Below, one piece after another: positions 9,514 through 34,396 of a stretch of 35,528 nt of DNA. Numbering within the stretch: position 1 is the first letter of the stretch; each line of letters opens with the position of its first letter. Under the pieces are notes generated by a model. The model was given only the letters and a program-made list of their open reading frames with translations. It searched no databases and was not told the origin of the DNA. The stretch spans positions 1 to 35,528 of the IMG/VR virus record IMGVR_UViG_3300032271_000184; one strand, given 5' to 3'. A program made the translations under genes and the position numbers. This DNA is from a virus.

Positions 9514-9941
9514 GCCTGACTGTTCGCCCCGTTGACACTAACCATATCCAGCAAGTCTGGCCTATGGTGCAAGGTTACATCCAGAAAGCTCTTGATGAAA
9601 GAGAAGATTTTCCTGATTGGGCAGATGGATACAACATTTCGCATGTACAAATGTTTTTGACTTCAGGGCAGTGGTTGCTTCTGGTAGCGGTGGATGAAGA
9701 GCAAACAATTCACGGGGCCATGACGGTTTCGTTTATTAACTACCCTCTACACCGGGTAGCATTTGTGACCACAACGGGTGGTAAATTCATTGCAAACCCA
9801 GAGCTTCTGGAACAGCTAAAAACGTTGGTTAAAACTCATGGCGCGACTAAAATACAAGCATTCTGCCGGGAATCTATGGTACGCCTTCTGTCACGCGCTG
9901 GCTTTGAACCCCGCAATACTTTAGTAGAGGTTCTTGTATGA
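9510..9941 (+). CDS. GNAT-fold protein similar to T7 gp13
   Basis: A 143-aa protein coupled by ATGA to genes on both sides (9510 and 9938). The order of elements fits an acetyltransferase fold: TVRPVDTNHIQQVWPMV at the start, a central WLLLVAVDEEQTIHGAMTVS pair of strands, and RLLSRAGFEPRNTLVEV at the end, as in a GNAT C-terminus. T7 gp13 (internal virion protein A, about 138 aa) belongs to this fold group and is also encoded directly before the ejection proteins, so size and position both agree. Whether it binds acetyl-CoA is not evident, since no clean Q/RxxGxG/A loop is visible. It could be catalytically dead and act in assembly. Confidence 0.6.
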   Translation: MSLTVRPVDTNHIQQVWPMVQGYIQKALDEREDFPDWADGYNISHVQMFLTSGQWLLLVAVDEEQTIHGAMTVSFINYPLHRVAFVTTTGGKFIANPELLEQLKTLVKTHGATKIQAFCRESMVRLLSRAGFEPRNTLVEVLV

Positions 9942-12900
9942 TAATTTTTAACAAACACAGCGGGTATTTCCGTGACGGCATCCGTAGATACTACAGCGGT
10001 GGTGGTAGCAGTGGCCCTACAACATCTACAGTTAACCAATCTAATATCCCGGACTATTTGCGTCCGCAGGTTGAAACGTTGCTTGGTGGCGCAACCAAAG
10101 AGTTGTTTAACACAACGAGAGATGCTGATGGCAATTACAGCATTGATAGTACAAAGCCGTTTACGCCCTACAGCAACAATGTAAATGACTATGTAGCGGG
10201 CTTTAACCCACTACAACAGCAAGTTCAGACAAATGTCGCCAACTTGCAAATGCCAGGTCAGTACAACCAAGCTACCAGTTTTGCAAATGCCGCAGGGCAA
10301 GGGGGGATGAACTCTGCTGCCCAAGGCGCAGGTTATGGTAATGCGGGGTTTCAGTTCGGCCAGGAGGGACAAGGCATTGGCTCACTTGCCGCACAAGACG
10401 CTTTGGATCGAGCCAATCAAGCAGCGGGTTTTGCAGTACAACTTGGTGGAGAGGCTCGTTCTGCCGGGTTTCAAGGCCAAAATATTGGCTCACTTTCCCA
10501 ACAAGATGCTTTAAATCGCGCCAATTCAGCAGCACTTGTGGCGGGTAATTACGGTCAGCAGGGCCAAGACTACGGACATGTAGGAGCACGTGTAGGCACA
10601 GAAGGCGGCGCTGCATACGGACAACAAGGTGCTAACTACGGCGCTATGGGACAAGCTGCCGCCCAGCAAGCCGCCGACCAAGCCGCAAATGCCTCTTATG
10701 GGTACGGCGCACAAGGCACAAATGTTGGGCAACAAGCCGCCAACTACGCAACAATGGGTGGAGCGCAAGCCCAGCAAGCTGCTAATCAAGCGGCTGGTGC
10801 TTCTTATGGTTACGGTGCACAAGGGGCAAATATTGGGCAACAAGCAGGCCAAGTAGGCGCATTCAATGCCGCCCAAGCCGCCCAAGCCGCCCAAGCTGCA
10901 TCTCAAAACGCTGGTATGTATGGCCTTCAAGGCACGCAGGCAGGCAACCGTGGAGAGGGCATCGCTGCTCTTGCCGCGCAAGACGCTTTTAGCCGAGCTA
11001 ATAACACATCCAATTTAGCGGAACAAGCTAGCCAATCTGGCTTTCAATCTGGACAAATGGGTCAGGGACTAGGCGTTCAGCAAGGGGGCGAGTTCGGTCA
11101 AACAGGGCTTCGTTCTGGAATGCTTGGGCAAGATATAGGCACCCAAGGGGGTGCGCAATACGGCAATATAGGTGCTCAGGCTGGTTCTCAAGGGCAACAG
11201 TCTGGCCTGATGGGCCAAAATATAGGCACCCAAGGCGGTGCAATGTACGGCAATATGGGTGCTCAAGCTGGCGCTCAAGGGCAGCAGTTCGGTCTGGCAG
11301 GTCAACAAGCTGGCGCACAAGCGGCTCAACAAGCTGCTGCCGACGCTGCGCAAGGTAGATCCACTGGTTATGGCTACGGCGCTATGGGCGTTCAGGCTGG
11401 CGTGCAAGGGCAACAACTTGCTCAACAAGCTGCTAATCAAGCGGCTAATGCTTCTTATGATTACGGGACGCAGGGTTCTGGGTACGGCGCTCAAGCTGGA
11501 CAAGTAGGCGCACTCAACGCCGCAATGGCTCAAGAAGCTGCCCGACAAGCCTCTGAAAATGCTGGTATGTATGGGCAAATGGGCTTACAAGCGGGTAGCC
11601 GTGGCGAAGGTATTGCTGCTCTCGCCGCGCAAAATGCTAGCAACCGTGCAAATATGGCTACGAGTGCTGCGCAGCAATCGGGTGCTCAAGGGCAACAGTC
11701 GGGTTTGCTTGGACAAAATACAGCCATCCAGGGCGGCGATAAATACGGCAGCATGGGCGCGGGCTACGGTTCCCAAGCCGCTGACTTATCTGGTCAAGCG
11801 GTGGAATATGGTAAATCAGGTTCCAGTTCAGGACAAATAGGACAACAGCTTGCCCTCGATGCTGCTAATCGTTATGGTGCCATGGGCGCTGAGGCGGGTG
11901 CTCAAGGGCAACGGTCTGGTCTGATGGGCCAAGATATTGGCACCCAAGGCGGCGATAAATACGCCGGTATGGCTGCTGGTTATGGCTCCCAAGCTGCTGA
12001 ATTAGCCAATCCGGCGTTGGGGTATGGCCAAGCAGGTTTCAGTGCAGGAGAAATGGCACAGAAATTTGCCATGGATGCCGCCAAACTTTATGGTGACATG
12101 GGCTCGGATTATGGGAAGCAAGGCGCTGAAGCTGGTGCGTCGGGGCAATATTACGGCAATCTAGGCGCTAACTACGGTCAGCAAGCTGCGGCACTCTCGC
12201 CGCAAGCGCAAGCGTATGGTGCCCAAGGCGCAGGGTATGGACAACAAGCTGCTAAATTAGCTGACAATGCGTTAGGGTACGGGCAGGGCGCTGCCGATAT
12301 TGGCCGCATGGGACTTCGCGCTGAGACACTGGGGCAAGACATTACGGGGCAGGCACGAGGATACGCGGCTCAAGCCGCAGGTGCTGGACAGCAGTATGCC
12401 AGCCAAATCACCAACCCAAATGCTATGCAGTCGTACATGAATCCGTACACGCAAAATGTTGTGGATGTACAGAATCAAGCCGCCCAACGACAAGCCGATA
12501 TTGCTCGTACACAGCGCGGTTCGCAAGCTGCTCGTGCGGGTGCTTTTGGTGGTGCTCGTCAGGCTATTGAAAACGCGGAAGCTGACCGCGCATTACAGAC
12601 TTTGATGAACGCCAACCAAGCTCAAGGGCTACAAAGCGCGTATCAACAGGCACAACAAGCTCAACAGTTTGGCGCGAATCTTAATCTTCAGGGACTGCAA
12701 GGGGCGCAGCAGGGTCTGGGTACGGCGCTGCAAGGTGGTCAATTGGGCTTGTCAGGTATTGGGCAAGCTATGGCGGGGCAGCAAGCGGGTATGCAAGGGG
12801 TAGGACAAGCTGGCTCAATGTATGGTCTTGGAATGCAGGGTGCACAGTCTGGCTTGGCTGGACTTAATGCGGCTAATCAGTTTTATCAAACTGGCCTTCA

Positions 12901-16499: not shown

Positions 16500-19400
16500 A
16501 TGGCCGGGCGCGATTTTAGCAATGAGTTGTTTGGCACGTCAGCACCCAGCGGTGGCAGAGACTTCAGCAGCGAACTATTTGCGGAGCCTGTAAAGCGAAA
16601 GGTGGCTCTTGAAGATATCCCTGCTACTGATGCAATGGGTAACTTCACCAATGCTCTACCAGTGGCCGAAGAGCCAGCCCCGTCAGCGCCAGACAACAGA
16701 GGCATGATCAGTCGTGTCGGTGATTTCCTACGTCCGGGTTTCAAGAGCGTATTAGAAGCCCCCGTAACGCCCGAGCAGCAACAGTTAAATGCCGACCGCC
16801 GATTGGGCTATGGCGCTGGCCCGATTTCACCTGAAACAGAAGCTGCTGCCGTTGCTGCTCGTGCTGGCAAAGAAGCCACCAAAAACAAGACTGTAAATAA
16901 AGTGGCCCGCGCCATGAATGCGCAGGATGACTCTTCATTTGAGGACATGATTGTTAGAGCTAAAGATCCAGAAATAATGCGGGCAGCAAGGGACGCAAAG
17001 GCAAACGAATTTCGCAGTGCTGGTGAATGGGCGGCTGACACTTTATCCGGCATAAGCCAGGGTACGGTGGGCTTGGTTGAGTTACCTCTCAATATCTTTG
17101 CACCGAGCGGAGGGTTAGCAAAAACATTACGCAAAACGCAAAATGAATTACAAGCACAAGAGTCAGACGTGCTTAAAGCCCAAAGATATCAACTGCTTGA
17201 GCGCGTCCAAAATGAAGATGGATTCTTTGGCAAATATTTTGCAACCGTAGAGGGATTGGTAACTAATCCAGCACTAGGTATCTCAGAAGCCGTCAAACAA
17301 GTACCTAATTTCTTGAGCATCATGGGTGTTGCCAAATTGGGTGGTGCTTTGACTGGCTCGGCAGTGCAGGCGGCTAGTCGTTTTAGCCCAAGCATTGCTT
17401 TGTCCGAGGCTATCAGTGGTAATGCGTTACGCGCTGGAGCGCAGGCGGCTGGTACCACAGCGGGCGGCTTGGGTGCTTCAATACTGATGACGAGCGGTGA
17501 TGCGGCCGGGAATACTTACCAAACACTGACCGATCCCAAAAAAACCCCAATGTCGGTTTGGAAAACCAATCCCGACTTTCAAGAGCTTGTCTCTCAGGGT
17601 AAAACCCCAAAGCAAGCTATTGAAGAAATCTCAACGACCAAGGCACGTTTAGCCGCTGCTCTCGTTGCGCCTTTGGGGGCTTTGGGTTTTATGGGTGCAG
17701 AAGCAGCTATCTTGGCAAGGCCAGGATCACGCGCCGCATTGCAAGCCGCGACACCAAAGGGTGCGGCCAAAATATTTGCCAAAGAACTTGGCGGCGAACA
17801 AATTGAAGAGGGCGGCACACAACTGGGTAGTAACGTGGTTACCCAGACAGTCAACCCCCAGCAGGGCTTGACCGAGGGTGTACCTGAAGCAATGGCAACT
17901 GCGGCTGTTACGGCTGCGCCTTTTGCGGGTGCGGCCGTAGCGTCTCAGGCGGCACGAGCTTTGCAAACCCCACAAGCAGACTTGCTTGCAGAGGGCGAAG
18001 CACGTAGACGACTTGATCCTCAGTCTTATGAGGCAAGTCTTGTCAATCCAGCCTCCACAAGAAAACCCTCAGTCCGTGCGGCACCGTCAAAAGAACCAGC
18101 ATTAACGAACGAATCCCTGAACGCAGGCGTTGATCCGATGGGCCGTATCGAGCCATCACTGGAAAAGACAACCCCGGTGCGTGAAGAAATTCCGGGTATG
18201 GTCTCAGAGTCAGACCTTGACATACAAGAGAAAGTAACACCTGTTACACTGAGGGAAAACCCTAATGAAGTACCAGAGGTAACGCCAGAACAGGCAACCA
18301 AAGCCAAATGGTTAAAAGCGATTAACGACCAAAACCGCATGCAGCCAGAAGGCGGTGTGCAGTTAACCGTCACGCCCGAAGGCAAGCTCAATTTCATGGG
18401 TAACCCCGGCGCAACAAAGCAGGGTAAAGCGCTTGAGGCAACTTTAAACGAGGCAGTCAAGGCGGGCGCAACGGTTGAAGAAATAGCCGAGTCCATCAAC
18501 AACGCCAAGCAACCTGCCGCCGTTGCGTCTGAGAATGTCGCACCCATTACTCCGGCCTCTTTTGCCGCCGACATGGCAGCAGGCAAAAAGAAAACCACGC
18601 CTGAAGACGTGCAGTTTTATTTAAATAACGCGGTAGAAATTGAAGCAGAGTTACGCAAGCTGCTTGCAAAGACTGAAACAGAAACGCCTGCACCGCCACC
18701 GCCACCTGCCGCACCAGTTACGCAGCCTGCTCCCTCTGAGGGAACTGCGGGAACCACGGGAACTGCGGGAACCACGGGAACTACGGAGGAAGGGGCCGGA
18801 AATATCCAGCCGCCGCAGGCTGCACCTACACCACCGCCTGCCGCTGTCCAGCCCACCAAAGCTGCGGAGTCCATACCTGAGACACCAACAGTACCCCCGG
18901 CCAAAACACCCAAGTTGTTTGAGCCACCAGCAGAACAGCACGAGGCTGCTGACCGACCGACTGTCCCGGTGCCAGTGGCTGATCTCAAATTGTCTGAGGA
19001 CGTGCCGCAATTCAAAGCTGGTGCCACAGAGAAGGGTGTTGTTGAACCACTCACAGGGAAATTCTCATCAGAAGGAACAGCGCCGATTGCTGTATGGCGC
19101 AGGCTAGACGGAACGTTAGAAGTCATCTCTGGCCGTCATCGTTTTGACCTAGCCCAGCGCAGCGGAACCAAGTTTATAAATGCACAGGTGTATGACGAAG
19201 CCCAGGGGTTTACCGCAGCCGATGCGTCCATATTGGATGCAAAGTTAAACATTAGGGATGAACAAGGAAAGGTCAAAGATTATGTCAACTACTTTAAAAC
19301 CAGCGGCACAGACAAACAAGCAGCCGAGTCAGAAGGACTTCTGGGACGGGTTAAGGGCAAGCGGGGTTTCGCAATCGCAAATCAGGGATCGGATGTTCTT

Positions 19401-22400
19401 ATCGCCGCGCTTAATGCCGATCAAATCGGGGACGAAGCGGCGTTCTACATCGCGCTAAATGCACCAAATAATTCAGGACTCCAAGCCGTAGGTTTACGCG
19501 CCATTATGGATGGCAAGTCTATGCAGACAGCCGTGAACATCATGGAAGCCGTCAAAACCATGAAGGGCGCAGGCAATACTCAGCGCGTGTTATTTGAGGA
19601 TGATCACAGCTTAATTGATGCAGCAAATGCGATGGCAAAGATTGCCTCCAAGATGCAGCAGTCCATCAATAGCCGACTTTCTGCAATCTCGGGTGCGGCC
19701 AAGAACCCGGATATGGCCAAAGCAGAGGGTATAGATGTACGCGACCCAGAAGCAATAAAAGTGCGTATCAATGAGCTTAAAGCCGAAAAAGCAGTGCTTG
19801 AGAACTGGTCAACCAACCCGGAGTTAGTTGCCAAAATTCGTGCAGCCAGTGGAGTAAAAGAGTCTGAATTTGAGTTGAAGAGTGAGACTCCAGAAGAAAC
19901 GGTTGCAAGAGAATCTACGCAAGATGCCGAGCGTCAAGCGCAAGAAGCAAAAGACATGGCAGACCGGGAAAGAGATTTCTTCCAACTGCAACCGCAAGCA
20001 GGCGAGCGTGAAGAGGCTCCAACGATAGACATGTTTGGTGCCGCTGATATGGCGCAGCAACCTGCACAAACAGCACCCGTAGCACCGCCCGTAACGGATG
20101 GCTTGTTTGCGCCCGCGAACCAAGCTGCACCAACAACGGCTGAGAACGAAGTCGCCGCACCAGTAGAAACAACTACCCCAGCTCAACGCGAGGAGGCAGA
20201 GAATCACGCCAAGGAAGTGGGCGGTACCCTGGTCTGGCAAGACGGTGACTACGCGCTAATCCGAGGCTACTCACTGTTAAGTGGCGACCCAGTTTATGTG
20301 CCTACGATTGGCAGCAGCCGCGCCAGAACCGACATTGCTTCTTTCACTGGCAAACAAATTCCAGAAGATGTCAAGCAAACAATGGTGGAGGTTAAACAAC
20401 GTTTGGAGGATGAGGAAACGGCCAAGCATGCAACCAATCCTTTCATTGTGTTTGATCGCGGCATGGCGTTTTCTCCAGACGTTCCGGAGGCACTGGCTAA
20501 CGTTGCACGTGGATGGAAAGACCTGCTTAAACTTAAACCCAATATCTACATTTCAACCGTAGCCTCTGCCAAGGAAAACAAAGATAACTTTACCGGGCCG
20601 CACCGTCGGATTGGTTCGGCTGCGCTTGACTCAAACTCTCGCGGATCAACTCGGAGAATGACAGACGACAGTCATTACATTGTGGTTTCCAAGTCCACAA
20701 GTCCTACGCTCATGCTTGAAATAATTGCCCATGAGTTAGGGCATATTCACGAAAAAGAATATTTCAATCAAGCATCTCCGGATGTCAAAGAAGCGCTGAA
20801 GAAAGCACATGCTGCGTGGGCTAAAAGCCAAAAGGGAAAAAGTGCCAAAGAGTTAGTTGACTCATTGCGCGGCAGGGCAACAGCCCGTGTTATGGCGATT
20901 GATCCAAATGCTAAAGCTGACAATCTGAGTGTGTACTGGACATCGTTTGGCGAATGGTATGCAGACCAGACCTCCCGCTGGGCATTGACTTCAAAATCAC
21001 CAGTCTCTGTGGTAGAGAAGTTCTTTAAAAGATTGGCCGTTCAATTGCGCATGTTTTATCAAAAACTGCGCCATGCCAAATATCTGCCCAATGAAACGTT
21101 TGCAAAATACATTGAAGAGGCAACTGGCAAATCAGTAGATTTAACGCCTAAAGATGATCGAGCCAGTCAGATGGCAACTGGGAACGAGGAAGAAAAAACT
21201 GGCGATGTTTTAGAAGTAAGTAAAACAGGTAAAAGCGCAAGCATTGAGGACGACAAGAAGCTGGTTGAGAAACACAATCGGCCACCGACTCCGCAATTAG
21301 ACCCAACGCCCACCAAGACTACGCTGGTGAATGCAACAAAAGCAAGTAAAGAGTATTTGAAATATGCTTTTGATGCCCCGATGGATGCACTGGGTACTGC
21401 GGCTAATGCCATTGATCGTGGCGTGATGTATGCCCGCAATAAGAATGTTTGGTTTGGCTCTGGCTTGAATGCGGTTGACGCTGCCAATTACAACGGCCAG
21501 CTAAAAACTAGTCAAGGTTTGGCGATTGCTTCTGTTGCGCTGGACAATGCTATCCGCGGAGGTCAGATTGCTGTCGAAGTAATTTTCCAAGGCGGGATTA
21601 GGTTTGATTCCAAAAGTCTCACTTTTGTAGCCACCGAGAAACCTTTGGGCATGCGCGGCGTGTATGAGGCCGAGAACGAGCTTAAAAAGAAATTGGGTAA
21701 CCAGCTAGGCGCTGACATCATTCAAGGCTACCTTGAGGCCAAGCGAAGCCGCAGCATTCAAAATGAATTCTATGACCGCCAAGCAAACTTGGAAACGCTG
21801 AAAGAAACATACGAGCAGATGCTTGAAAGCGGCGCTTCTGAAAAAGATATTAAAGTTGCTAGAGATGCTTTTGCTGATGCCAAAAAAGAGCTTCAAGACA
21901 TCGAGATTGTGTTCAACAAAATCAACATGTCTGATGCTGAGATTGATGAGTTCATAGCCCGCGACAAAGTGCATCCCGAGCTTGGCAAGATCATGAAGAA
22001 CTGGTCTGCCATCAACCAAAACATGCTGAACCTCTGGCGACAAGTGGGTTTACTCTCTAAAAAGAGGTACGAGGCTCTATCCAACATCCAAGACTATGTA
22101 CCGTGGCAGCGGATTATGAATGACGAGGCAGACATTCATTCACCAGTACAAGCTACCAACAGGACGATGACTAACATCGGGCTAGAGCGCGTTTTCAAAA
22201 AGGGAACGCCTACTGTCACTACCAACTTTAAGGCTACTGAAGGACAACAAGATTTCAAAGTTCAGCCCGCCAAAGTGATGTCGGTTGAGGTTAATGGCAA
22301 GACCGTTGATCCGGCCAACATTGAGTCATTGCCCGAGGGTAAAGTGCGTTTGAATGTACCGATTGCCAAAGGCGATCTGGTGGTGTTCACGGCCAGCCGG

Positions 22401-24200
22401 GAAATAGAAAACATTATTTCCAACATGACGAGCAACGTGACGCGGATGACGATGAATGGTTTACGCCAATACGCTGCACAGCGGATTGTCTCTGAGTACG
22501 CTACACGCAACGCCAAAAAACAAGTGATGACTTTCCCCAAGGTTGATCTGTCAAAAGGGCGGTTCAGTTTTATCACCAACGGCAAACGAATTGTTGTTGA
22601 GATACAAGACCCACTGATTGCAGAGTCAGTCATTGGTATGGAGACGCTGGGCATTGCCATGTATAAGCCCCTGGCAATGGCGGCCAACATTACGCGCCGT
22701 GCCATCACTTTGTCTGGTGCATTCCAAATCAAACAGATCTTTAAAGATGCGCCCACTGCGGCTTTGGTGACGGGCGTAAAAAATCCGCTGGCGCTGATGG
22801 GAGGTGTGTACAAAGGATTTGTTACTAGCCTGCTCAACACAGATCCTACAGTGCAGATTTTAAAGTCTGCTGGTATTGGTGGATTCCAAAGCGCAGCACG
22901 AACGCCAGAGGCCGAGATTAAGCGCCGCCTCGGTATCATGAATAGGAACGTCTTTGACTTCATGATCAAAGGGCTAGATCACATTGGAGATGCGTCTGAT
23001 ATGGCGCAGCGAGTTGCTGTCTACAATCGGGTATTGGCTGAAACCGGGAATGAAGCGCAAGCACTTTACCAAGCGGCGAACGTCATCAACTTCTTACACC
23101 ACGGATCAGGTCAAGTGGCACAGTTTGTTGTGAAGACCGTCCCGTTCGCTGGCGCGTATGCCAATTCAATTGACGTGCTTGCGCAAGGACTGGCGGGTGG
23201 TGGCTTAAAGGGTAACTCCAGAGCCAAGAATCTCCAACGTCTCGCTGTAACGGGTACGCTGCTGACGACCATGACCTTGTTGTACTGCATGATGGTCGGC
23301 GATGATGATGAGTACAACCAGATGGATGACCAAACCAAGCTGAGAAACTTCATGATTCCCGGCACGAAGATTATTCTTCCCATGAACACCAGCGCAGCGT
23401 ATTTCTTTAAAGCTATTCCCGAGATGCTTTACAACAAAGTTGTCAAAGAGGGTACAAAGAACGCTGTTGACGAACGTCGATTAAGGACTGCATTGAAAGA
23501 GGCTGCAATAGATCTATTGCTTGGCCCTACACCCGTACCTTCAGCCGTCAAACCTTTCCTAGAGCTTGGCCTCAACAAAGACTTTTTTACGGGCCGTCCA
23601 GTCGTACCTGATTCGGTGGCGAAATTGGATGCTGCCGTGCGCTACACGGCAGAAACCAGCGAACTTGGGAAGCGTATTTCCGCTTTGACCGGGACGGACG
23701 AAAAACGTCTGCTCGATCCGATACAGGCCGATCACATTGTTCGCGGTATCTTTGGTTCAGCGGGTGCTATGGCGCAGTGGTTCTCCAACAGCATCGGTGC
23801 TGCGGCTGATGCACGGGTTGCTCCAACTGATAAACAGAAGCCGATTGTTGGGCCGTTCTTGCGCGATGAAGTGCCGCGTCGAAACGAAGATTTGTTCTAC
23901 AACTTCAAAGAACTTGTGGACAATAAATACGGCACGTACACAAAGATGATTGAGCGCGAAGACTTTGATGCAGCCGACAAGTACTTGGACAAGCATTCAG
24001 ACCTCGTGGAGTCCCATGACTACATCACTGAGGCTGGCACTGAATTGGAGGACATCAATTCAATGATTCGCTACTACGGTGAGTCCAAAGATACGGGCCT
24101 GACACCTCAAGAGCGCCGCAAAGAAATCATTGATTTGCAGCGACTCAAACAGGAAGTCTTGGATGACGTGATTGAGTTCCGCAAGAACGCCGGACTGTGA
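16500..24200 (+). CDS. Giant polyvalent ejection protein: ParB-like fold, HExxH zincin, LPD38-like C-terminus
   Basis: A 2566-aa protein with AAAGGA before ATG 16500. The N-terminus repeats a short motif, GRDFSNELF (residues 3-11) and GRDFSSELF (19-27). Residues about 260-480 contain Ala/Gly-rich hydrophobic helices. A Pro/Thr-rich linker covers about 727-790. A ParB/sulfiredoxin-like domain runs from about 822 (VPVADLKLS) through SGRHR (877-881). A zincin-like protease domain has H1411-E1412-x-x-H1415 and a likely third ligand E1485 in GEWYADQ. The last 500 residues (IKQIFKDAPTAALVTG, NVINFLHHGSGQ, then a membrane-like helix near 2247-2266) resemble LPD38 of polyvalent phage proteins. It is the last gene of the late block and sits where T7 has gp16. 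It is probably packaged and injected, with the protease and ParB-like parts acting early in the new host; this is inference. Confidence 0.7.
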   Translation: MAGRDFSNELFGTSAPSGGRDFSSELFAEPVKRKVALEDIPATDAMGNFTNALPVAEEPAPSAPDNRGMISRVGDFLRPGFKSVLEAPVTPEQQQLNADRRLGYGAGPISPETEAAAVAARAGKEATKNKTVNKVARAMNAQDDSSFEDMIVRAKDPEIMRAARDAKANEFRSAGEWAADTLSGISQGTVGLVELPLNIFAPSGGLAKTLRKTQNELQAQESDVLKAQRYQLLERVQNEDGFFGKYFATVEGLVTNPALGISEAVKQVPNFLSIMGVAKLGGALTGSAVQAASRFSPSIALSEAISGNALRAGAQAAGTTAGGLGASILMTSGDAAGNTYQTLTDPKKTPMSVWKTNPDFQELVSQGKTPKQAIEEISTTKARLAAALVAPLGALGFMGAEAAILARPGSRAALQAATPKGAAKIFAKELGGEQIEEGGTQLGSNVVTQTVNPQQGLTEGVPEAMATAAVTAAPFAGAAVASQAARALQTPQADLLAEGEARRRLDPQSYEASLVNPASTRKPSVRAAPSKEPALTNESLNAGVDPMGRIEPSLEKTTPVREEIPGMVSESDLDIQEKVTPVTLRENPNEVPEVTPEQATKAKWLKAINDQNRMQPEGGVQLTVTPEGKLNFMGNPGATKQGKALEATLNEAVKAGATVEEIAESINNAKQPAAVASENVAPITPASFAADMAAGKKKTTPEDVQFYLNNAVEIEAELRKLLAKTETETPAPPPPPAAPVTQPAPSEGTAGTTGTAGTTGTTEEGAGNIQPPQAAPTPPPAAVQPTKAAESIPETPTVPPAKTPKLFEPPAEQHEAADRPTVPVPVADLKLSEDVPQFKAGATEKGVVEPLTGKFSSEGTAPIAVWRRLDGTLEVISGRHRFDLAQRSGTKFINAQVYDEAQGFTAADASILDAKLNIRDEQGKVKDYVNYFKTSGTDKQAAESEGLLGRVKGKRGFAIANQGSDVLIAALNADQIGDEAAFYIALNAPNNSGLQAVGLRAIMDGKSMQTAVNIMEAVKTMKGAGNTQRVLFEDDHSLIDAANAMAKIASKMQQSINSRLSAISGAAKNPDMAKAEGIDVRDPEAIKVRINELKAEKAVLENWSTNPELVAKIRAASGVKESEFELKSETPEETVARESTQDAERQAQEAKDMADRERDFFQLQPQAGEREEAPTIDMFGAADMAQQPAQTAPVAPPVTDGLFAPANQAAPTTAENEVAAPVETTTPAQREEAENHAKEVGGTLVWQDGDYALIRGYSLLSGDPVYVPTIGSSRARTDIASFTGKQIPEDVKQTMVEVKQRLEDEETAKHATNPFIVFDRGMAFSPDVPEALANVARGWKDLLKLKPNIYISTVASAKENKDNFTGPHRRIGSAALDSNSRGSTRRMTDDSHYIVVSKSTSPTLMLEIIAHELGHIHEKEYFNQASPDVKEALKKAHAAWAKSQKGKSAKELVDSLRGRATARVMAIDPNAKADNLSVYWTSFGEWYADQTSRWALTSKSPVSVVEKFFKRLAVQLRMFYQKLRHAKYLPNETFAKYIEEATGKSVDLTPKDDRASQMATGNEEEKTGDVLEVSKTGKSASIEDDKKLVEKHNRPPTPQLDPTPTKTTLVNATKASKEYLKYAFDAPMDALGTAANAIDRGVMYARNKNVWFGSGLNAVDAANYNGQLKTSQGLAIASVALDNAIRGGQIAVEVIFQGGIRFDSKSLTFVATEKPLGMRGVYEAENELKKKLGNQLGADIIQGYLEAKRSRSIQNEFYDRQANLETLKETYEQMLESGASEKDIKVARDAFADAKKELQDIEIVFNKINMSDAEIDEFIARDKVHPELGKIMKNWSAINQNMLNLWRQVGLLSKKRYEALSNIQDYVPWQRIMNDEADIHSPVQATNRTMTNIGLERVFKKGTPTVTTNFKATEGQQDFKVQPAKVMSVEVNGKTVDPANIESLPEGKVRLNVPIAKGDLVVFTASREIENIISNMTSNVTRMTMNGLRQYAAQRIVSEYATRNAKKQVMTFPKVDLSKGRFSFITNGKRIVVEIQDPLIAESVIGMETLGIAMYKPLAMAANITRRAITLSGAFQIKQIFKDAPTAALVTGVKNPLALMGGVYKGFVTSLLNTDPTVQILKSAGIGGFQSAARTPEAEIKRRLGIMNRNVFDFMIKGLDHIGDASDMAQRVAVYNRVLAETGNEAQALYQAANVINFLHHGSGQVAQFVVKTVPFAGAYANSIDVLAQGLAGGGLKGNSRAKNLQRLAVTGTLLTTMTLLYCMMVGDDDEYNQMDDQTKLRNFMIPGTKIILPMNTSAAYFFKAIPEMLYNKVVKEGTKNAVDERRLRTALKEAAIDLLLGPTPVPSAVKPFLELGLNKDFFTGRPVVPDSVAKLDAAVRYTAETSELGKRISALTGTDEKRLLDPIQADHIVRGIFGSAGAMAQWFSNSIGAAADARVAPTDKQKPIVGPFLRDEVPRRNEDLFYNFKELVDNKYGTYTKMIEREDFDAADKYLDKHSDLVESHDYITEAGTELEDINSMIRYYGESKDTGLTPQERRKEIIDLQRLKQEVLDDVIEFRKNAGL
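18740..18784 (+). repeat. Five 9-bp tandem units in a Pro/Thr linker
   Basis: Units of the form GGGAACTGC and GGGAACCAC alternate, and the fifth is GGGAACTAC. They encode Gly-Thr-Ala/Gly-Thr-Thr inside the flexible linker before the ParB-like domain. This is probably a simple slippage array. Confidence 0.8.
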
Positions 24201-27673: not shown

Positions 27674-27886
27674 ATGAATGAACGAATCAAAGAGCTTGCG
27701 GAACAGGCTGGAGCAGTTTTTACTGATTCTCATGCTGCATCGTTGTTAGACGGTGAAATAGAAAGGTTCGCCGCACTGATTGTGCGTGAGTGTGCTGAAG
27801 TCGCGGCTGAAACAGTTTGCGAGGCAGAAGGTGTTGATTTTGGTTTGGTAGAAGAATGCTATAAACATTTTGGAGTTAAAGAATGA
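27674..27886 (+). CDS. Small accessory protein with an RECAEVA module
   Basis: The start is ATG 27674, after AAGGAGAAATGAA; an in-frame start at 27614 lies inside the previous gene. The 70-aa product reads IKELAEQAGAVF, then IERFAALIVRECAEVA. This layout (a helix, then an Arg-Glu-x-Cys-Ala core) is shared with the next three genes, where the core is EREACA. I know such proteins from Betaproteobacterial phages without a function. It is coupled to the next gene by ATGA. Confidence 0.5.
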   Translation: MNERIKELAEQAGAVFTDSHAASLLDGEIERFAALIVRECAEVAAETVCEAEGVDFGLVEECYKHFGVKE

Positions 27887-28125
27887 CACACACAGAAGAA
27901 CTGATTGCGCGTCTGCGCGACACCGCAAGCCGGGGCGTATCGGCATGGGGTGACTTGCAGCAAGAGGCCGCTGATGAGCTTGAGACGCTGATGAATGCAG
28001 TAGCCGAAGAGCGCGAGGCGTGTGCGAAGGTGTGTGAACATGAATGGTCAAACGCTGTTGAACGTGAATTCAGCGAACAGTGTGCCGCAATTATCCGGGG
28101 CCGCGAACTAAGGGAACAGGCATGA
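27883..28125 (+). CDS. Small accessory protein with an EREACAKV module
   Basis: An 80-aa product with ELIARLRDTASRGV at the start, LQQEAADELETL in the middle and AEEREACAKVCEHEW near residue 41-55. The Cys pair in the module could bind metal, but spacing is not conserved in its neighbours. It overlaps genes on both sides by ATGA. The last codons include AGGGAACAGGC, the putative ribosome site of the next gene. Confidence 0.5.
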   Translation: MTHTEELIARLRDTASRGVSAWGDLQQEAADELETLMNAVAEEREACAKVCEHEWSNAVEREFSEQCAAIIRGRELREQA

Positions 28126-28328
28126 CACAAGATGAAATATTTGAGATAGCTAAACAAGCTGGGTTTATGCGGCACCTTGGGGTTATCTGTATCCCCAATT
28201 TCCAAAGTCTTGAACGCTTTGTTGAGTTGATTGCAGCGGACGAGCGTGAGGCGTGTGCGAAGTGGCTTGAGGACGAAGTAGACGCGCCAAATTGGGCAGA
28301 GCAAATCAGAGCAAGGGGACAAGCATGA
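28122..28328 (+). CDS. Small accessory protein with an EREACAKW module
   Basis: The start at ATG 28122 overlaps the previous stop (ATGA). The 68-aa product begins QDEIFEIAKQAGF, similar in plan to the gene at 27674, and continues LERFVELIAADEREACAKWL. It ends ARGQA, where the DNA AGGGGACAAGC serves as the next gene's ribosome site. Function unknown. Confidence 0.5.
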   Translation: MTQDEIFEIAKQAGFMRHLGVICIPNFQSLERFVELIAADEREACAKWLEDEVDAPNWAEQIRARGQA

Positions 28329-28642
28329 ATAATAAACAACCCCGCGAAGGTTTTGAGGCGCACATCAATGATTGCATTGAGAGCGAAGGCGGCTTAATGC
28401 AGGCTTTGCAGCGTGACGCGGCTGGCGACTACGTGACGCATTGGGTCGCTGAAAAGTTTGTGATTTGGCAAGTCGCATCTTCAAAAGAGCGCGAGGCCTG
28501 TGCAGAGGTGGCAAAAGAGCAAGCAGCAAAGTACGCACCGGGCGGCAGCTTACACACAATGATGAACATTGACACCACACGGGCGGCTGCGGCGGCTTGC
28601 GAACACGTAGCGCATCTTATTAACGAAAGGGGACAAGCATGA
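28325..28642 (+). CDS. Small accessory protein with an EREACAEV module
   Basis: The start at ATG 28325 overlaps the previous stop (ATGA). The 105-aa product has FEAHINDCIESEGG, then WQVASSKEREACAEVAKEQ and CEHVAHLINERGQA at the end. The final ERGQA is encoded by nearly the same junction DNA as the end of the preceding gene. It is the fourth member in a row with the R-E-x-C-A-type core. Function unknown. Confidence 0.5.
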   Translation: MNNKQPREGFEAHINDCIESEGGLMQALQRDAAGDYVTHWVAEKFVIWQVASSKEREACAEVAKEQAAKYAPGGSLHTMMNIDTTRAAAAACEHVAHLINERGQA

Positions 28643-29493
28643 CTAAATATCGCAAAAAGCCCGTGGTCATTGAGGCCACACAATGGTTCAAGATGGGCGA
28701 CCACCCGATGGTTCATAAACCTATAACAACGGTGGAATTAAATTCGGAATGGGAAAGGCGGCAGGGACTTCCTGAAGGTTCGCTTGGCGAAATAAAAACT
28801 CTTGAAGGCTACCTGTTAGTCACCCCCGGCGACTGGATTATCACAGGCGTAAAGGGCGAGCATTACCCTGTAAAATGTGACATTTTTGAGTTGACCTATG
28901 AGTTGGCGCAGCCAGTGCAGGAGCCGGGGAAACTTTGGCTATGGAAAAACTTTGTTGACGGCAAGCCGGAATATTTGGCTTTTGACAACGCATTTCCTTG
29001 TATGTCGGAAGGTGGCGACCCGCTAACTATTGGAGAGCCATGCGGATGGGCGCTTTTAAAACCTTCTGTCAACGGCCGACCAACAAGGAGGTCTGAGCAG
29101 GAGGCAGTTGACACAGTGATGCGCCTTACACCCCTGCCAGTGCAGCCAGTGGGACAACTTTGCGAGGAGGCATATGGGCGTGGGCAAGTCATGTGGTTCA
29201 AACAACCTGCTGACGGTGCACTGCTTTATGCCGCTCCAACCATGCCAGTGCAGGAGCCTGATTACTGGCTTGGATATGGATTGCAAACTCATACAGAGAA
29301 GCCATTTGAAAACGCCACCGCTCTCTACACCACCTCACCAAAGCGCGAATGGGTAGGGCTGACGGATGAGGAGATTTGTCGGGAGTATCAAAGTATTTGG
29401 TCTTTCCACCCACGACATGAACCTGAGTTGGCTAAAGACACTATTAAGTTATTTCGAGCTTTGGAAGCCTTGTTAAAGGAGCGCAACACATGA
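28639..29493 (+). CDS. Modular phage protein: YRKKPVVIEA domain plus EWVGLTDEE module
   Basis: A 284-aa product. Residues 1-90 form a domain widespread in phages: KYRKKPVVIEATQW, later VTPGDWIITGVKGEHYPV and DIFELTYE; it resembles the PGDYG-type family, function unknown. The middle (about 180-200, RGQVMWFKQPADGALLYAAP) looks like another reused piece. Residues about 237-250 contain REWVGLTDEEICREY, a module that also appears in the next gene and in variants near 30.7 and 31.2 kb. The gene looks like a fusion of three exchangeable modules. It is coupled at both ends by ATGA. Confidence 0.6.
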   Translation: MTKYRKKPVVIEATQWFKMGDHPMVHKPITTVELNSEWERRQGLPEGSLGEIKTLEGYLLVTPGDWIITGVKGEHYPVKCDIFELTYELAQPVQEPGKLWLWKNFVDGKPEYLAFDNAFPCMSEGGDPLTIGEPCGWALLKPSVNGRPTRRSEQEAVDTVMRLTPLPVQPVGQLCEEAYGRGQVMWFKQPADGALLYAAPTMPVQEPDYWLGYGLQTHTEKPFENATALYTTSPKREWVGLTDEEICREYQSIWSFHPRHEPELAKDTIKLFRALEALLKERNT

Positions 29494-29744
29494 CTAACCT
29501 AGCTAAAACGAGTGAAATAATAAATAAAGTCTTACGCCAAATTATGGAAGAAAAGTTTGAGCGTGAGTGGGTAGGGCTGACCGATGATGAGTTAATGAAG
29601 TGCGTGGTATTTAAACAAATTCCGTATGACCCGCCCTATATCGACAAGGACGGTGTGAAGTTTGTAGCCAGCCATGAAGTGTCGCTACGGGCAACCTACG
29701 AGAAAATTGAACAAGCCCTGAAGGAGAAGAACAATGAGAATTGA
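29490..29744 (+). CDS. Small accessory protein with an EWVGLTDDE module
   Basis: An 84-aa product with REWVGLTDDELMKC near residues 25-38, nearly identical to the module in the preceding gene. It ends EQALKEKNNEN; the codons for KEKN read AAGGAGAAGAAC and act as the ribosome site for the gene starting at 29734, which overlaps by 11 bases. Function unknown. Confidence 0.5.
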   Translation: MTNLAKTSEIINKVLRQIMEEKFEREWVGLTDDELMKCVVFKQIPYDPPYIDKDGVKFVASHEVSLRATYEKIEQALKEKNNEN

Positions 29745-29952
29745 CGGGCTACTAATCTGCGCGGTGTGCGACAAGCCCGTGGAGAAAATGCAGGTTTATG
29801 ACGAGGCGCTTACGGATACCAAGGTGTTTACGGCTTACTGCCACGGCGAAACGGAGCGGCAAGTATTGACCTCGTTCTTCATGCTCAATGCGGACAAGAT
29901 TAATTTTGTTCGTGCGTTTGAAAGACCTGTGTTGGAGAAAAACAATGGATGA
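29734..29952 (+). CDS. Small protein with a possible zinc site
   Basis: A 72-aa product with Cys9-x-x-Cys12 (LICAVCDKP) and Cys36-His37 (AYCHGETE), an arrangement compatible with one zinc ion. The second half (TSFFMLNADKINFVRAFE) is probably helical. It overlaps both neighbours, and its final LEKNNG codons hold the GGAG site for the next gene. No family recognised. Confidence 0.5.
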   Translation: MRIDGLLICAVCDKPVEKMQVYDEALTDTKVFTAYCHGETERQVLTSFFMLNADKINFVRAFERPVLEKNNG

Positions 29953-30124
29953 CAAAGAACTGCTTGATTACGTTGAGCAAGAGCTGTTCTACGCAATGCT
30001 CAATGGCGTTGCAACCTTAGACCATCTTGGTTATACCGAGTTTGAGTCTGGCTCTTGGTCAGTGCGGCTCCGCGCAGATCAGATTGCCCGACTGTTGGAC
30101 ATGTCGAAAGGAAAGAACAAATGA
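29945..30124 (+). CDS. Small phage protein, 59 aa
   Basis: ATG 29945 is chosen because TTGGAGAAAAAC lies just upstream; an in-frame start at 29888 is buried in the previous gene. The product is acidic at first (DDKELLDYVEQELFYAML) and contains TLDHLGYTEFESGSW. It ends SKGKNK with a GGAAAGAAC ribosome site inside those codons. Unknown function. Confidence 0.45.
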   Translation: MDDKELLDYVEQELFYAMLNGVATLDHLGYTEFESGSWSVRLRADQIARLLDMSKGKNK

Positions 30125-30300
30125 AAACGAAACAAGAAATCAAAGAAGAAATCATTGAGTTGTATGGGGCAACTCAAGCCTTGGGCGAGGCAATGAACTT
30201 CCTTCATGCACAACGCATGGAAAAAAGCAAACAGATGATGGCGCTAAACCATATGCTCAGATACATGGGCGAAGACGATTCTGAGGAAAAGAACAAATGA
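30121..30300 (+). CDS. Small helical protein, 59 aa
   Basis: The start at ATG 30121 overlaps the previous stop (ATGA). The product is almost entirely predicted helix (KQEIKEEIIELYGATQAL, then MNFLHAQRMEKSKQMMALNH) and could form a coiled-coil dimer. It ends EEKNK, and the codons GAGGAAAAGAAC precede the next ATGA. Unknown function. Confidence 0.45.
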   Translation: MKTKQEIKEEIIELYGATQALGEAMNFLHAQRMEKSKQMMALNHMLRYMGEDDSEEKNK

Positions 30301-30476
30301 AACCATTTGAAGAAATTGCCAAAGAAGCCAAGGTAGAACTAACCCCCGAGATGCGCCTGTTTGGGTGTTTTGTGCAACGCTATGCCCTGATTGAGTACTG
30401 GGAGGCGGCGGCAAAGCAAGCAAAATATCAGCACGACACATTTGAAAAGTTTTTAAAAGGGGAGAAGAACACATGA
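30297..30476 (+). CDS. Small phage protein, 59 aa
   Basis: It opens at ATG 30297, overlapping the previous stop, and closes at TGA 30476, overlapping the next start. The 59-residue product (EEIAKEAKVELTPEMRLFG, then CFVQRYALIEYWEAAAKQ) is largely helical and ends KGEKNT. The coupling at both ends and the AAAGGGGAGAAG site in its last codons support it as a real gene. Unknown function. Confidence 0.5.
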   Translation: MKPFEEIAKEAKVELTPEMRLFGCFVQRYALIEYWEAAAKQAKYQHDTFEKFLKGEKNT

Positions 30477-30772
30477 CACGAGACGAAGAAATTGAACGCC
30501 AGAACGAAAAAATTCAGTTCCTTGCCCGAACCAATATGTTGTATAGCGATTGGGAGCATCGTGATACACAAGTCACAAGCCAGTTAATCCGCAAAGGTAT
30601 TGACGAAGCAAAAATCAATGCTGAGTTACGAGCAGAGATTGAGCAACTCAAACAACGTGAATGGCGGGAATTAACAGGCGCGGAGGTTAAAGCGATTAGA
30701 GACGAGGCAGGGTCAATCGACGATGCTATATACATCGCAGAGCGCAAACTCAAGGAGAAGAACACCACCTGA
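30473..30772 (+). CDS. Coiled-coil accessory protein with an EWRELTGAE module
   Basis: A 99-aa product. Residues about 35-65 form a helical coiled-coil segment (INAELRAEIEQLKQREW). REWRELTGAEVKAIRDEAG is a diverged version of the EWVGLTDEE module. It ends KLKEKNTT with AAGGAGAAGAAC in the codons, although no gene begins there, so this may be the relic of a lost coupled gene. 116 bases follow before the next gene. Confidence 0.5.
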   Translation: MTRDEEIERQNEKIQFLARTNMLYSDWEHRDTQVTSQLIRKGIDEAKINAELRAEIEQLKQREWRELTGAEVKAIRDEAGSIDDAIYIAERKLKEKNTT

Positions 30773-30888
30773 ATGCTATCTGCCCCAAGGCTTTTTCTGT
30801 AATTTCCAGCGGGGCGGTAAAGTGCGTCAAACGCGGGCGGCAAATGCGTGACAGTCGGAGAGACGACACCTAACTAACTGGAGAAGAA

Positions 30889-31113
30889 ATGAACGAACAA
30901 AACAACGGTGGCCCAGCGTTTCCAGCGCCAGCAGGAGTGAGCCACATCACAGAACAGGGCATGACCTTACGCGATTATTTTGCAGCGAAGGCGTTGACGG
31001 GGATTCTTTCTGCAAATGGTGATGCAAACGGGTATCTTGAGTATGAAGAAAATATGGTTGCAAAGAATGCGTACAAATTGGCAGACGCAATGCTGAAAGC
31101 GAGAGCAGCATGA
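30889..31113 (+). CDS. Conserved phage protein with a GMTLRDYFAAKAL motif
   Basis: A 74-aa product with GGAG before ATG 30889. It begins NEQNNGGPAFPAPAG, then GMTLRDYFAAKALTG, and ends AYKLADAMLKARAA. I recognise this as a very common small phage and prophage protein of unknown function. It is coupled to the next gene by ATGA at 31110. Confidence 0.65.
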   Translation: MNEQNNGGPAFPAPAGVSHITEQGMTLRDYFAAKALTGILSANGDANGYLEYEENMVAKNAYKLADAMLKARAA

Positions 31114-31388
31114 CCTACGAAGAGTTTTTAACATTTATACCCACCGAGTGCATGTACGAAGCTAATTACACGGACAGCGATGGTCGAGACATTCTTGTGA
31201 TTCGAATGCTTGATGCATATGGCATGGTAAACAAAGCACAGCGCCAGTGGCAGGGACTAACAGATGAGGAGCGAGACAGCGTGCTTGACTCTGTTCCCGC
31301 AAACAATATAGGCGGTGAGTACTACAGCGAAGAGATTACTGAAATTGCAAAAGCCATTGAAGCCAAACTTCAACTTAAAAACAGATGA
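31110..31388 (+). CDS. Small accessory protein with a QWQGLTDEE module
   Basis: A 92-aa product with FIPTECMYEANYTDSDGRD at the start and RQWQGLTDEERDSVLD in the middle, a further variant of the EWVGLTDEE module. The rest (EEITEIAKAIEAKLQ) is helical, ending KNR before the NinG-like gene. Unknown function. Confidence 0.5.
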   Translation: MTYEEFLTFIPTECMYEANYTDSDGRDILVIRMLDAYGMVNKAQRQWQGLTDEERDSVLDSVPANNIGGEYYSEEITEIAKAIEAKLQLKNR

Positions 31389-32092: not shown

Positions 32093-33100
32093 ATGAGCGA
32101 ATGGATTAACAAATGTCACTTCGGTGATTGCCTTGAAACGCTTCAGCGTATGCCTAATGGCATCGTCAATACCTGCGTAACAAGTCCTCCATACTTTGGC
32201 TTGCGTGACTACGGCAATGATGGGCAGATTGGGCTAGAAGCTACGCCTGACGAGTTCATTGCAAAGCTGGTGGCGGTGTTCCGTGAAGTGCGCCGGGTGC
32301 TGCGTGACGATGGGACGCTGTGGCTGAACATTGGGGATAGCTATGCCAACAATACATCTGCTGGTGATAAAACTTTTGGGAATCCAGAATTTAACAAAAA
32401 CCGTCCGAGTAGGGCTGCCACAAAAACAGCATCAAAATCTGTTCCATATGGATGCAAGCCAAAAGACCTAATCGGCATCCCTTGGCTTCTGGCCTTCGCA
32501 CTTCGCGCTGATGGCTGGTATCTGCGTCAGGACATCATCTGGCACAAGCCGAACCCTATGCCTGAGTCGGTGCAAGACAGATGCACTAAAGCGCATGAGT
32601 ACATTTTCCTGTTGAGCAAGTCGGAGCGGTATTACTACGATGCGGGGGCGATTGCGGAGCCTTCAAACCCTGATTACAAGTCCAGATATGACTCTGACTT
32701 TACAGGCAGGCCGGGTCTTGTGATGCCAGATGGGAAGGCTCAGGGAATCGCTATAAAGGGGAGTAGGGAATGGAAGGAAACCCGCAACAAGCGCAGCGTC
32801 TGGACTGTGACCACTAAGCCATATACGGGAGCACACTTTGCCGTATTTCCTACAGAGTTAATCGAGCCTTGCATCCTTGCTGGCGCTCCTGTTGGCGGTG
32901 TAGTGCTTGACCCGTTTTTTGGTAGCGGTACTACTGGTCAAGTTGCACAGGCGCTAGGGCGTAAATACATCGGCTGCGAGCTAAACGCTAATTACAAGCC
33001 ACTGCAAGACCGTCGCCTTGAGCAGCCATCGTTTGAGTTTGCGGAGGCCGCATCAGGTGCAGGAGGCTTTGCTGTGACTAAGGGTTTTCCCTCAGTGTAA
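32093..33100 (+). CDS. Site-specific DNA methyltransferase (N4-cytosine / N6-adenine, SPPY class)
   Basis: A 335-aa enzyme. Motif IV TSPPYFGLRDYG begins at residue 30, and the AdoMet-binding motif I is DPFFGSGTTG (273-282) followed by GRKYIGCELNANY. Motif IV before motif I is the permuted beta-type order. SPPY is most often seen in N4-cytosine or N6-adenine enzymes; the target sequence cannot be read from the protein. The middle (about 125-170, IPWLLAFALRADGWYL and DIIWHKPNPMPESV) is the usual target-recognition neighbourhood. No companion endonuclease is adjacent, so it is probably an orphan methylase protecting phage DNA or altering expression. It is the last gene before the structured RNA. 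Confidence 0.85.
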   Translation: MSEWINKCHFGDCLETLQRMPNGIVNTCVTSPPYFGLRDYGNDGQIGLEATPDEFIAKLVAVFREVRRVLRDDGTLWLNIGDSYANNTSAGDKTFGNPEFNKNRPSRAATKTASKSVPYGCKPKDLIGIPWLLAFALRADGWYLRQDIIWHKPNPMPESVQDRCTKAHEYIFLLSKSERYYYDAGAIAEPSNPDYKSRYDSDFTGRPGLVMPDGKAQGIAIKGSREWKETRNKRSVWTVTTKPYTGAHFAVFPTELIEPCILAGAPVGGVVLDPFFGSGTTGQVAQALGRKYIGCELNANYKPLQDRRLEQPSFEFAEAASGAGGFAVTKGFPSV

Positions 33101-33135
33101 CACCTGTTACTCTGCAAAAAAAGTATTAAAAACAG

Positions 33136-33166
33136 TTGACAGCCATAGACTAGCTGTGTTTATAAT
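33136..33166 (+). promoter_or_regulatory. Sigma70-type promoter of the structured RNA
   Basis: Perfect TTGACA (33136-33141) and perfect TATAAT (33161-33166), with a 19-base spacer that is longer than ideal. A start about 7 bases on, near 33173, falls just before the complementary 5' arm of the RNA described below. The -35 is embedded in CAGTTGACA. Confidence 0.6.
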
Positions 33167-33172
33167 TACCCT

Positions 33173-33263
33173 GTTGCAGTCGTGTGCAGCGAATGAAAGC
33201 CGTTACTCATGCATTGGCCTCCGGTTGGAGGACACGACCCAGTGCAGTAGTAACGGCTTTTTT
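33173..33263 (+). ncRNA. Structured small RNA, C4-antisense-like candidate
   Basis: About 90 nt from the likely start to a T-tract. Stem P1: 33196-33207 pairs perfectly with 33249-33260 (12 bp, AAAGCCGTTACT with AGTAACGGCTTT). Stem P2: 33210-33217 with 33239-33246 (8 bp, one G-T). Stem P3: CCTCC (33218-33222) with GGAGG (33227-33231) around GGTT. The unpaired ACACGAC (33232-33238) is exactly complementary to GTCGTGT (33179-33185) in the 5' arm, giving a possible 7-bp pseudoknot. It has its own promoter and terminator and carries no supported ORF. Size, phage context and the pairing 5' arm recall the C4 antisense RNA class of P1-type phages, but this identification is from memory and untested. 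Confidence 0.6.
33196..33263 (+). terminator. Intrinsic terminator of the structured RNA
   Basis: The 12-bp P1 stem ends in GGC, followed by TTTTTT (33258-33263; three T residues also pair). It closes the small RNA and would also stop read-through from the methyltransferase gene 150 bases upstream, making it the likely end of the early operon. Confidence 0.65.
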
Positions 33264-33529
33264 ATTGCCACGACTTCAACCGTACTCCGCACGTAGTAGC
33301 GCACTTGAATCGGTGGCTCGGAAGAAAAGACACGACAAACTCGACACCCCGGTTTGCCGTACCAGCCTGTTAGCGAGGGACTGGTGTAGTCATCGGGACA
33401 AAGGGTGGGATAACCAAGCTCGATGATGAATGAATCGCTACCTCCGGGGGACTGGGGTCAGGCACATGTCTGGTCTGGGTCAGGGTCTAATCCACCCCTT
33501 GGGGGAACTAGATGCGAAAAATGCAACAG
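33264..33529. other. Non-coding gap with RNA-pairing sites and a short direct repeat
   Basis: No convincing gene. CACGACTTCAAC (33269-33280) is complementary to the small RNA 5' arm at 11 of 12 positions. CAACCG (33277-33282) is complementary to CGGTTG in the P3 loop, and ACACGAC recurs at 33330-33336. ACCAG (33361-33365) and CTGGT (33381-33385) close a small hairpin. CTGGGGTCAGG (33452-33462) and CTGGGTCAGG (33475-33484) form a near direct repeat with a period of 23. A regulatory leader or replication-related site is possible. Confidence 0.4.
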
Positions 33530-33559
33530 TTGACTCACGCGGAAGTCATGTGTTATATT
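33530..33559 (+). promoter_or_regulatory. Extended -10 promoter of the ParB-like gene
   Basis: TTGACT (33530-33535), an 18-base spacer, then TATATT (33554-33559) preceded by TGT, giving the extended -10 motif TGnTATATT. Transcription would start near 33566, about 24 bases before the next gene. It shares CAGTTGAC and AGTCATG with the promoter at 24384. Confidence 0.6.
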
Positions 33560-33589
33560 GGATAACCCTAACAAAACTATGGAAAACTG

Positions 33590-34396
33590 ATGAAAAAACT
33601 GAACCTGGCGCTGATACGAATTGATGGTGATACGCAGGCACGGGAGGAGCTATCACAGGAAAAGGTGGCCGAATACGCAGAGCTAATGCAGGACGGCGTG
33701 GTCTTCCCGCCAATTGAAGTGTTCTTTGACGGCAGCGATTATTGGCTGGTCAATGGGTTTCACCGTTACTTTGCCGCAAAAAAAAACGGATTAGTAAGTA
33801 TCGAGGTCATCATCCACATTGGTACGCTGGAAGAGGCCCAACTATTTTCCTGTGGTACAGACAAAGGGAACGGGTTGTCTTGGAATACAAAAGATAGGTG
33901 GCGCAATATCATGCGCATGCTCAAGCATCCCGTCTGGGGCTTGTGGACTAATGCAGAGATAGCACGGCACGTAGGCTGTTCCAAAATGACCGTAGGCCGG
34001 GTTAAAGCAAGCATGCAAGAGCCGGAACCCCAAACAAAGAAAAAATACCGGGACAAGCACGGTAAAGAGCAAGTCATTCAGACCAAAAACATTGGTCGCC
34101 AAAAAGAGAAAGAGAAAGAAGATGACGGCGAAGCCCACCGGGTTGTAGAACTTACCGATACCGTGAACGACTTGAGCAAAGAAAACCAAGCGCTGCGCGA
34201 CAAGATAGCGATAGGCCAGTGGGATGCCAGCGAGATTGAAAAGATCGATGTTCATGACACCGTAGCTGAGTTGCGGGAGCAGATCCGGGTGCTGGAGATA
34301 GACAACAAGGCATTGCGTGAAAGTCGTGACATGTACCAGAACAGAAACGCAGAGTTAATGAAAACCGTCAAAGCATTGCAAAATAAACTGAAATAA
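33590..34396 (+). CDS. ParB-like DNA-binding protein with HTH and coiled coil
   Basis: A 268-aa protein; GGAAAA lies shortly before ATG 33590. Residues 5-75 form a ParB/sulfiredoxin-type domain: LALIRIDGDTQARE, then FPPIEVFFDG and NGFHRYFAAKKNG, where GFHR (56-59) replaces the usual GxRR motif. Residues about 116-142 form a helix-turn-helix (NAEIARHVGCSKMTVGRVK). The C-terminal third is charged and coiled-coil-like (KENQALRDKIA, LEIDNKALRESRDMY). Phage proteins of this kind act as transcription regulators or replication accessory factors. With its own promoter and a helicase downstream, a replication or regulatory role is likely. No ParA partner is visible. Confidence 0.7.
   Translation: MKKLNLALIRIDGDTQAREELSQEKVAEYAELMQDGVVFPPIEVFFDGSDYWLVNGFHRYFAAKKNGLVSIEVIIHIGTLEEAQLFSCGTDKGNGLSWNTKDRWRNIMRMLKHPVWGLWTNAEIARHVGCSKMTVGRVKASMQEPEPQTKKKYRDKHGKEQVIQTKNIGRQKEKEKEDDGEAHRVVELTDTVNDLSKENQALRDKIAIGQWDASEIEKIDVHDTVAELREQIRVLEIDNKALRESRDMYQNRNAELMKTVKALQNKLK

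Follow-up and report, generated by a model that had tools for sequence, protein, structure and literature searches.

A pseudoknotted terminator at the head of a predicted ~330-nt non-coding RNA gene in aquatic phages

Introduction

In phage HK022, put RNAs occur within early operons, where they suppress termination in cis by contacting RNA polymerase. In the Pistol-type fold, the loop of a 5′ hairpin pairs with one strand of the internal loop in the hairpin that follows. The Betaproteobacteria-1 RNA (RF02932) was reportedly defined in a 2017 paper. GOLLD, ROOL and OLE are large, ornate RNAs of unknown function with several pseudoknots, and GOLLD and ROOL are free-standing, borne by phages or prophages, and found beside tRNA genes (PMC12286853).

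The window analyzed here is a whole 35,528-bp IMG/VR virus record (IMGVR_UViG_3300032271_000184). An initial annotation had marked a promoter, a nested hairpin, a 7-bp pseudoknot and a T6 tract in it, and had proposed a self-contained structured RNA, either a C4-type antisense RNA or a new class of phage RNA. All four elements lie where they had been placed. Comparative analysis points to a real and previously undescribed RNA, in which a ~91-nt pseudoknotted terminator is the start of a ~330-nt non-coding RNA gene (about 33173–33505, plus strand) present in more than 100 aquatic phage fragments.

Results

Promoter and fold of the 5′ domain

The RNA is preceded on the plus strand by a −35 element TTGACA (33136–33141) and a −10 element TATAAT (33161–33166), with its first G located 7 nt past the latter. 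Since the spacer between the two elements is 19 nt long and a simple promoter scan accepts only spacers of 16–18 nt, such a scan missed this promoter. In all 66 distinct upstream regions of homologues, the best −10 element ended 6–8 nt upstream of the GUUG with which the RNA begins, at a distance of 6 nt in 34 and 7 nt in 31 of them against a flat background, while the −35 element was exactly TTGACA in 19 of the 66. This fixed distance makes 33173 ± 1 the likely transcription start.

The transcript is predicted to open with the P1 hairpin (33173–33190; arms 33173–33177/33186–33190), the loop of which presents the pseudoknot arm X (GUCGUGU, 33179–33185). It is followed by a terminator hairpin with its U-tract (33196–33263), comprising stems P2 (33196–33207/33249–33260), P3 (33210–33217/33239–33246) and P4 (33218–33222/33227–33231), a 7-nt internal bulge X′ (ACACGAC, 33232–33238) and the T6 (U6) tract (33258–33263). 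X and X′ are perfectly complementary over 7 bp. The minimum free energy (MFE) of 33173–33263 was −46.7 kcal/mol, as compared to −24.7 ± 3.0 for dinucleotide shuffles (z = −7.2; 0/200 as stable). An 80-aa frame at 33184–33423 has no Pfam match and overlies the conserved RNA, and was rejected as a gene.

Searching for the terminator stem as an exact pattern gave 36 viral contigs, and a second pattern, on P3 and the bulge, matched 80 stretches, one of them (L151, 14.6 bits) by chance. Close homologues of the 5′ domain occur in about 80 IMG/VR contigs. Of 51 distinct sequences, 38 went into a covariance model, which scores them at 88–110 bits.

Across these 38 homologues, 99.9% of cells pair, and covariation reached 0.219 versus 0.104 in shuffles and at most 0.087 in slid controls (0/500). 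The pseudoknot is complete in each of the 38 sequences, with none of its seven pairs broken or changed on one side only; four are invariant and three carry two-sided changes (e.g., UA 17, AU 14, CG 7). The initial annotation had made its case depend on covariation in homologues, and this is what the alignment contains. Because the CGAC part and P3 belonged to the search pattern, their columns are invariant in part through selection; no such constraint applied to the three variable pseudoknot pairs, P1 or P4. P1, which the initial annotation did not include, is 100% paired in the alignment, with UA, UG and CG at columns 5/14.

The covariance model also picked out divergent copies that precede homologues of the window's ParB-like gene (L006, L007, L008 and L051), with weaker matches in the same position in L003, L004 and L009–L011. 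In the divergent copies the letters of the pseudoknot change and its complementarity stays: GUAGGAA/UUCCUAC, GUGAGAA/UUCUCAC and GUGGAAG/CUUCCAC.

A second structured domain follows the terminator

The next part of the transcript, also beyond the scope of the initial annotation, is a structured RNA domain at 33281–33505, referred to here as module 2. In the window it lies directly 3′ of the pseudoknotted terminator. An alignment of 42 sequences gave 98.6% of cells paired, two-sided changes at 20 of 35 pairs and covariation of 0.543, where shuffles gave 0.187 (0/500) and slid controls never exceeded 0.089. Its core hairpin, CCAGCCUGUUAGCGAGGGACUGG (33362–33384), exposes the loop UAGCGA (33371–33376), which forms a second pseudoknot (PK2) with UCGCUA at 33435–33440. 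This pairing, YARCGA with UCGYUR, has no exception in the 42 sequences and is realized by 28 C-G and 14 U-A at one pair and by 37 G-C and 5 A-U at another. A long hairpin (33389–33427; arms 33389–33396/33420–33427) shows two-sided changes at all 8 pairs. The claim that the 91-nt element is self-contained was only half borne out: it has a promoter and terminator of its own, but the comparison identifies it as the 5′ domain of a larger covarying RNA gene.

A separate promoter (TTGACT, an 18-nt spacer, TATATT; 33530–33559), found by the promoter scan, serves the ParB-like gene at 33590–34396 and shows where the RNA gene ends. L006, L008 and L051 carry CATGTGTTATATTGG, similar to the promoter of the ParB-like gene.

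In five loci the downstream domain is the Betaproteobacteria-1 RNA (RF02932, 90–103 bits), located directly behind a pseudoknotted terminator of this kind: L076 (6892–7009), L078 (309–425), L129 (6482–6600), L146 (782–899) and L157 (2495–2612). The Rfam model of this RNA spans 120 nt and excludes the terminator domain, past which its matches begin. The window's own downstream domain has no match to the RF02932 covariance model. The pseudoknotted terminator may be the missing 5′ domain of this orphan RNA. An unannotated RF02932 domain without the terminator domain was found directly after the primase gene of Acidovorax phage AP1 (OM049504; L156 2461–2584). In L075 and L143, module 2 contains an extra domain with a long inverted repeat at its bounds (ACCACATACAGATGGTGG and TGATTGATGATGGTG, respectively), as if inserted.

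Loci chosen by module 2 alone

The downstream core AGCCTGTYARCGAGGGACTRG, searched alone and without reference to the arm, recovered at least 119 viral contigs and had no match in GTDB genomes; the two exact patterns run on about 85,000 genomes of bacteria and archaea both came back empty. Among the matches listed, 81 of 95 distinct loci carried, just upstream of module 2, a hairpin of 8 bp or more with four or more T behind it, and 12 of the 95 lacked the 5′ domain; together with AP1, these 12 mean that the long RNA can at times do without it. The matches listed included 75 distinct hairpins, in which the arm scored 19.87 against its own loop and 15.00 (s.d. 0.30) against permuted loops (0/20,000, uncorrected for kinship). 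Arm and loop form 7–13 contiguous pairs in 73 of these 75, with 53 distinct arm sequences between them, such as GCGCUCGAACCGC/GCGGUUCGAGCGC in L220 and GGCGAUUACC/GGUAAUCGCC in L179. The T-run was 5–8 long in 69 of the same 75 listed loci, and a promoter scoring at least 9/12 stood at the right place in 41, where ~0.6 would be expected.

Seven loci (L160, L164, L191, L227, L234, L240 and L271) carry another 5′ domain, without terminator, upstream of module 2; several of these contain a tRNA T-arm-like stretch, TCTGGTTCGATTCCAGA.

A competing helix and the proposed short and long RNAs

The fold revealed a further helix, likewise new relative to the initial annotation. The 5′ arm (33173–33189) is also complementary to a segment just past the U-tract, X″ (33265–33280), giving a helix that we call PB. 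In the first set, PB scored −12.56 with the locus's own partner and −10.47 (s.d. 0.27) with permuted ones; in the set selected by module 2, among the matches listed, the values were −15.88 and −14.11 (s.d. 0.34), with 0/20,000 in both cases and kinship uncorrected in both. PB is nearly perfect in MW202545 (L157; GUUGGAUGUGGAAAA with UUUUCCACCUCCAGC) and weak in some loci, e.g., L110 and L138. Since the arm pairs either in P1 and X:X′ or in PB, the helices are mutually exclusive. In the window, isolated energies are −8.9 for the pseudoknot duplex plus −6.4 for P1, versus −18.8 kcal/mol for PB. The MFE fold of 33173–33515, a model that leaves the pseudoknot outside, picks PB (−138.2 versus −130.3 kcal/mol with P1 enforced).

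Because X″ exists only after read-through, the conservation of PB suggests, indirectly, that read-through transcripts matter and are selected and that the long RNA is real. Both conformations leave the terminator stem whole, so exchanging partners cannot by itself decide termination. We restrict ourselves to the weaker proposal that the partner of the arm would differ between terminated and read-through RNA, and make no claim that the arm controls termination.

The reading that we favor, with a probability of about 0.55, is a free-standing, moron-like cassette for a trans-acting non-coding RNA, in which the terminator sets the ratio of short to long RNA and the arm switches partner. RNA polymerase would start at 33173 and make the pseudoknotted intrinsic terminator first. 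A stop at the U-tract in vivo would yield a ~91-nt RNA with its 5′ end locked by P1 and X:X′, whereas read-through would add X″ and module 2, giving a ~330-nt RNA in which X″ would draw the arm out of the pseudoknot into PB. The terminator would thereby fix the short-to-long ratio, and the partner of the arm would follow that choice. In both forms the 5′ end would be paired from its first nucleotide and possibly shielded from 5′-dependent decay.

The ~91-nt terminated RNA could instead be the end product, working as a stable sRNA in trans or by binding protein, with module 2 as a separate neighbor. We consider this unlikely, given that the 5′ arm covaries with a segment past the terminator and that the 5′ domain lies immediately upstream in most of the listed module 2 loci (81/95), even though the element has its own promoter and terminator, the terminator stem and P3 sequences of the window subtype are conserved far beyond structural need, and more than one kind of downstream domain follows the same 5′ domain (the window type and the Betaproteobacteria-1 type).

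Quite unlikely in our estimation is one constitutive large RNA, in which the hairpin and U-tract serve as a folding domain and polymerase as a rule runs through them, possibly with the aid of a phage antitermination factor or a put-like RNA contacting RNA polymerase, and the pseudoknot is a transient intermediate of co-transcriptional folding, replaced by PB. The MFE selection of PB, with the pseudoknot outside the model, would agree with it, as would the copies in structural operons (beside the gene for the terminase large subunit or immediately ahead of that for the major head protein), since a functional terminator there would impede late transcription. A pure folding domain would need no T-run, yet the run is kept despite changes in the stem in nearly all listed loci (69/75).

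Genomic context

In the window, the RNA gene neighbors a methyltransferase gene and the ParB-like gene. Across loci, its neighbors include terminase small and large subunits, a major head protein, a primase, a DNA methyltransferase, an exonuclease and RuvC, and in related terminase loci the cassette follows the large-subunit gene in some and precedes it in others. Because the neighbors are so diverse, cis-control of one gene is unlikely; a cis-riboswitch was rejected on the grounds that the downstream genes differ. The RNA, as judged from this context, is probably trans-acting, so under the favored reading its product would work in trans.

One-sided changes in the 5′ domain and module 2 give G-U on the plus strand and not A-C, so the molecule is an RNA of the plus strand. 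This strand-specific tolerance, together with a sigma-70-type promoter at fixed spacing in all copies, makes it very improbable that the locus is a DNA-level element (a replication origin, or packaging or recombination hairpins), as its position beside replication genes in the window and beside terminase genes elsewhere might suggest.

A tRNA gene lies within 1 kb of the RNA in 9 of 147 loci; 20 tRNA hits (duplicate loci included) fall within that 1 kb, versus 21 in all distinct loci together. The distance is 80–120 nt in L077, L081, L113, L127, L135 and L148, and L157 carries five tRNAs at 1745–2226. The L113 contig also contains an int-alpA RNA (RF02996; 5427–5494).

Elsewhere in the window, a run of small ORFs (27883–31388) repeats short peptide motifs (EREACAK..., REWVGLTDEE...), which look like one domain copied onto many small proteins. 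A 1723-aa protein (9938–15109), consisting largely of degenerate Gln/Gly-rich repeats (QGLQGAQQGLG-like), had no match in PHROGs, and a 2566-aa protein (16500–24200) bears an LPD38 polyvalent-protein domain near its C-terminus.

Discussion

Precise covariation, a promoter of its own, and occurrence in more than 100 aquatic phage fragments among differing neighbors imply that this RNA must be useful to phages. More tentatively, the cassette may move horizontally between phages, each with a private arm code, the arm pairing inside its own terminator in the short RNA or just beyond it in the long one. The segments would then diversify fast while keeping their complementarity, comparable to the loops of plasmid incompatibility systems. 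The orphan Betaproteobacteria-1 RNA gains a context, named phages are at hand (Acidovorax phage AP1, MW202484 and MW202545), and the role of pseudoknots within intrinsic terminators becomes a testable question.

No Rfam family fits the window at E ≤ 1 or the 33100–33620 segment at E ≤ 10 in cmscan; relaxed-threshold matches to mir-451, SNORD50 and PreQ1 were rejected as chance. When the RNA of the window was compared directly with 50,697 phage records by BLASTn, none matched, and relatives were reached only with L076 as a query. A literature search for Betaproteobacteria-1 and pseudoknotted-terminator phage RNAs, covering sources other than the defining paper of RF02932, found no description. 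The proposal of a new, pseudoknot-containing class of phage RNA was supported, given covariation without exception and no matching Rfam family. We regard the locus as a new composite family, its 3′ domain partly a known orphan RNA, that is not in Rfam as a whole and is not C4.

An antisense RNA of the C4 type (RF01695), acting on an adjacent antirepressor-like gene, is barely credible despite the similar size, several helices and phage context of these small structured RNAs, since the Rfam scan gave no C4 model match at E up to 10, the new RNA has its own promoter and terminator, its neighbors vary, its complementarity is internal, and an adjacent antirepressor (ant) operon with leader complementarity, a C4 trait, was seen neither at the locus nor in its relatives. 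With the put RNAs, compared by description only, it shares a promoter-proximal phage RNA structure near a terminator, but its context is not fixed. As in the Pistol-type fold, the loop of its 5′ hairpin pairs with an internal-loop strand of the next hairpin; it differs in having no Rfam match, a U-tract that follows, and no sign of a cleavage core.

The Rfam models of GOLLD, ROOL and OLE matched neither the window nor any of 31 related loci. GOLLD and ROOL form a homo-oligomeric cage. The new RNA resembles these two in being free-standing and phage-borne, with several pseudoknots and a minority of copies beside tRNA genes, and differs from GOLLD, ROOL and OLE in being shorter (~330 nt) and led by a pseudoknotted terminator.
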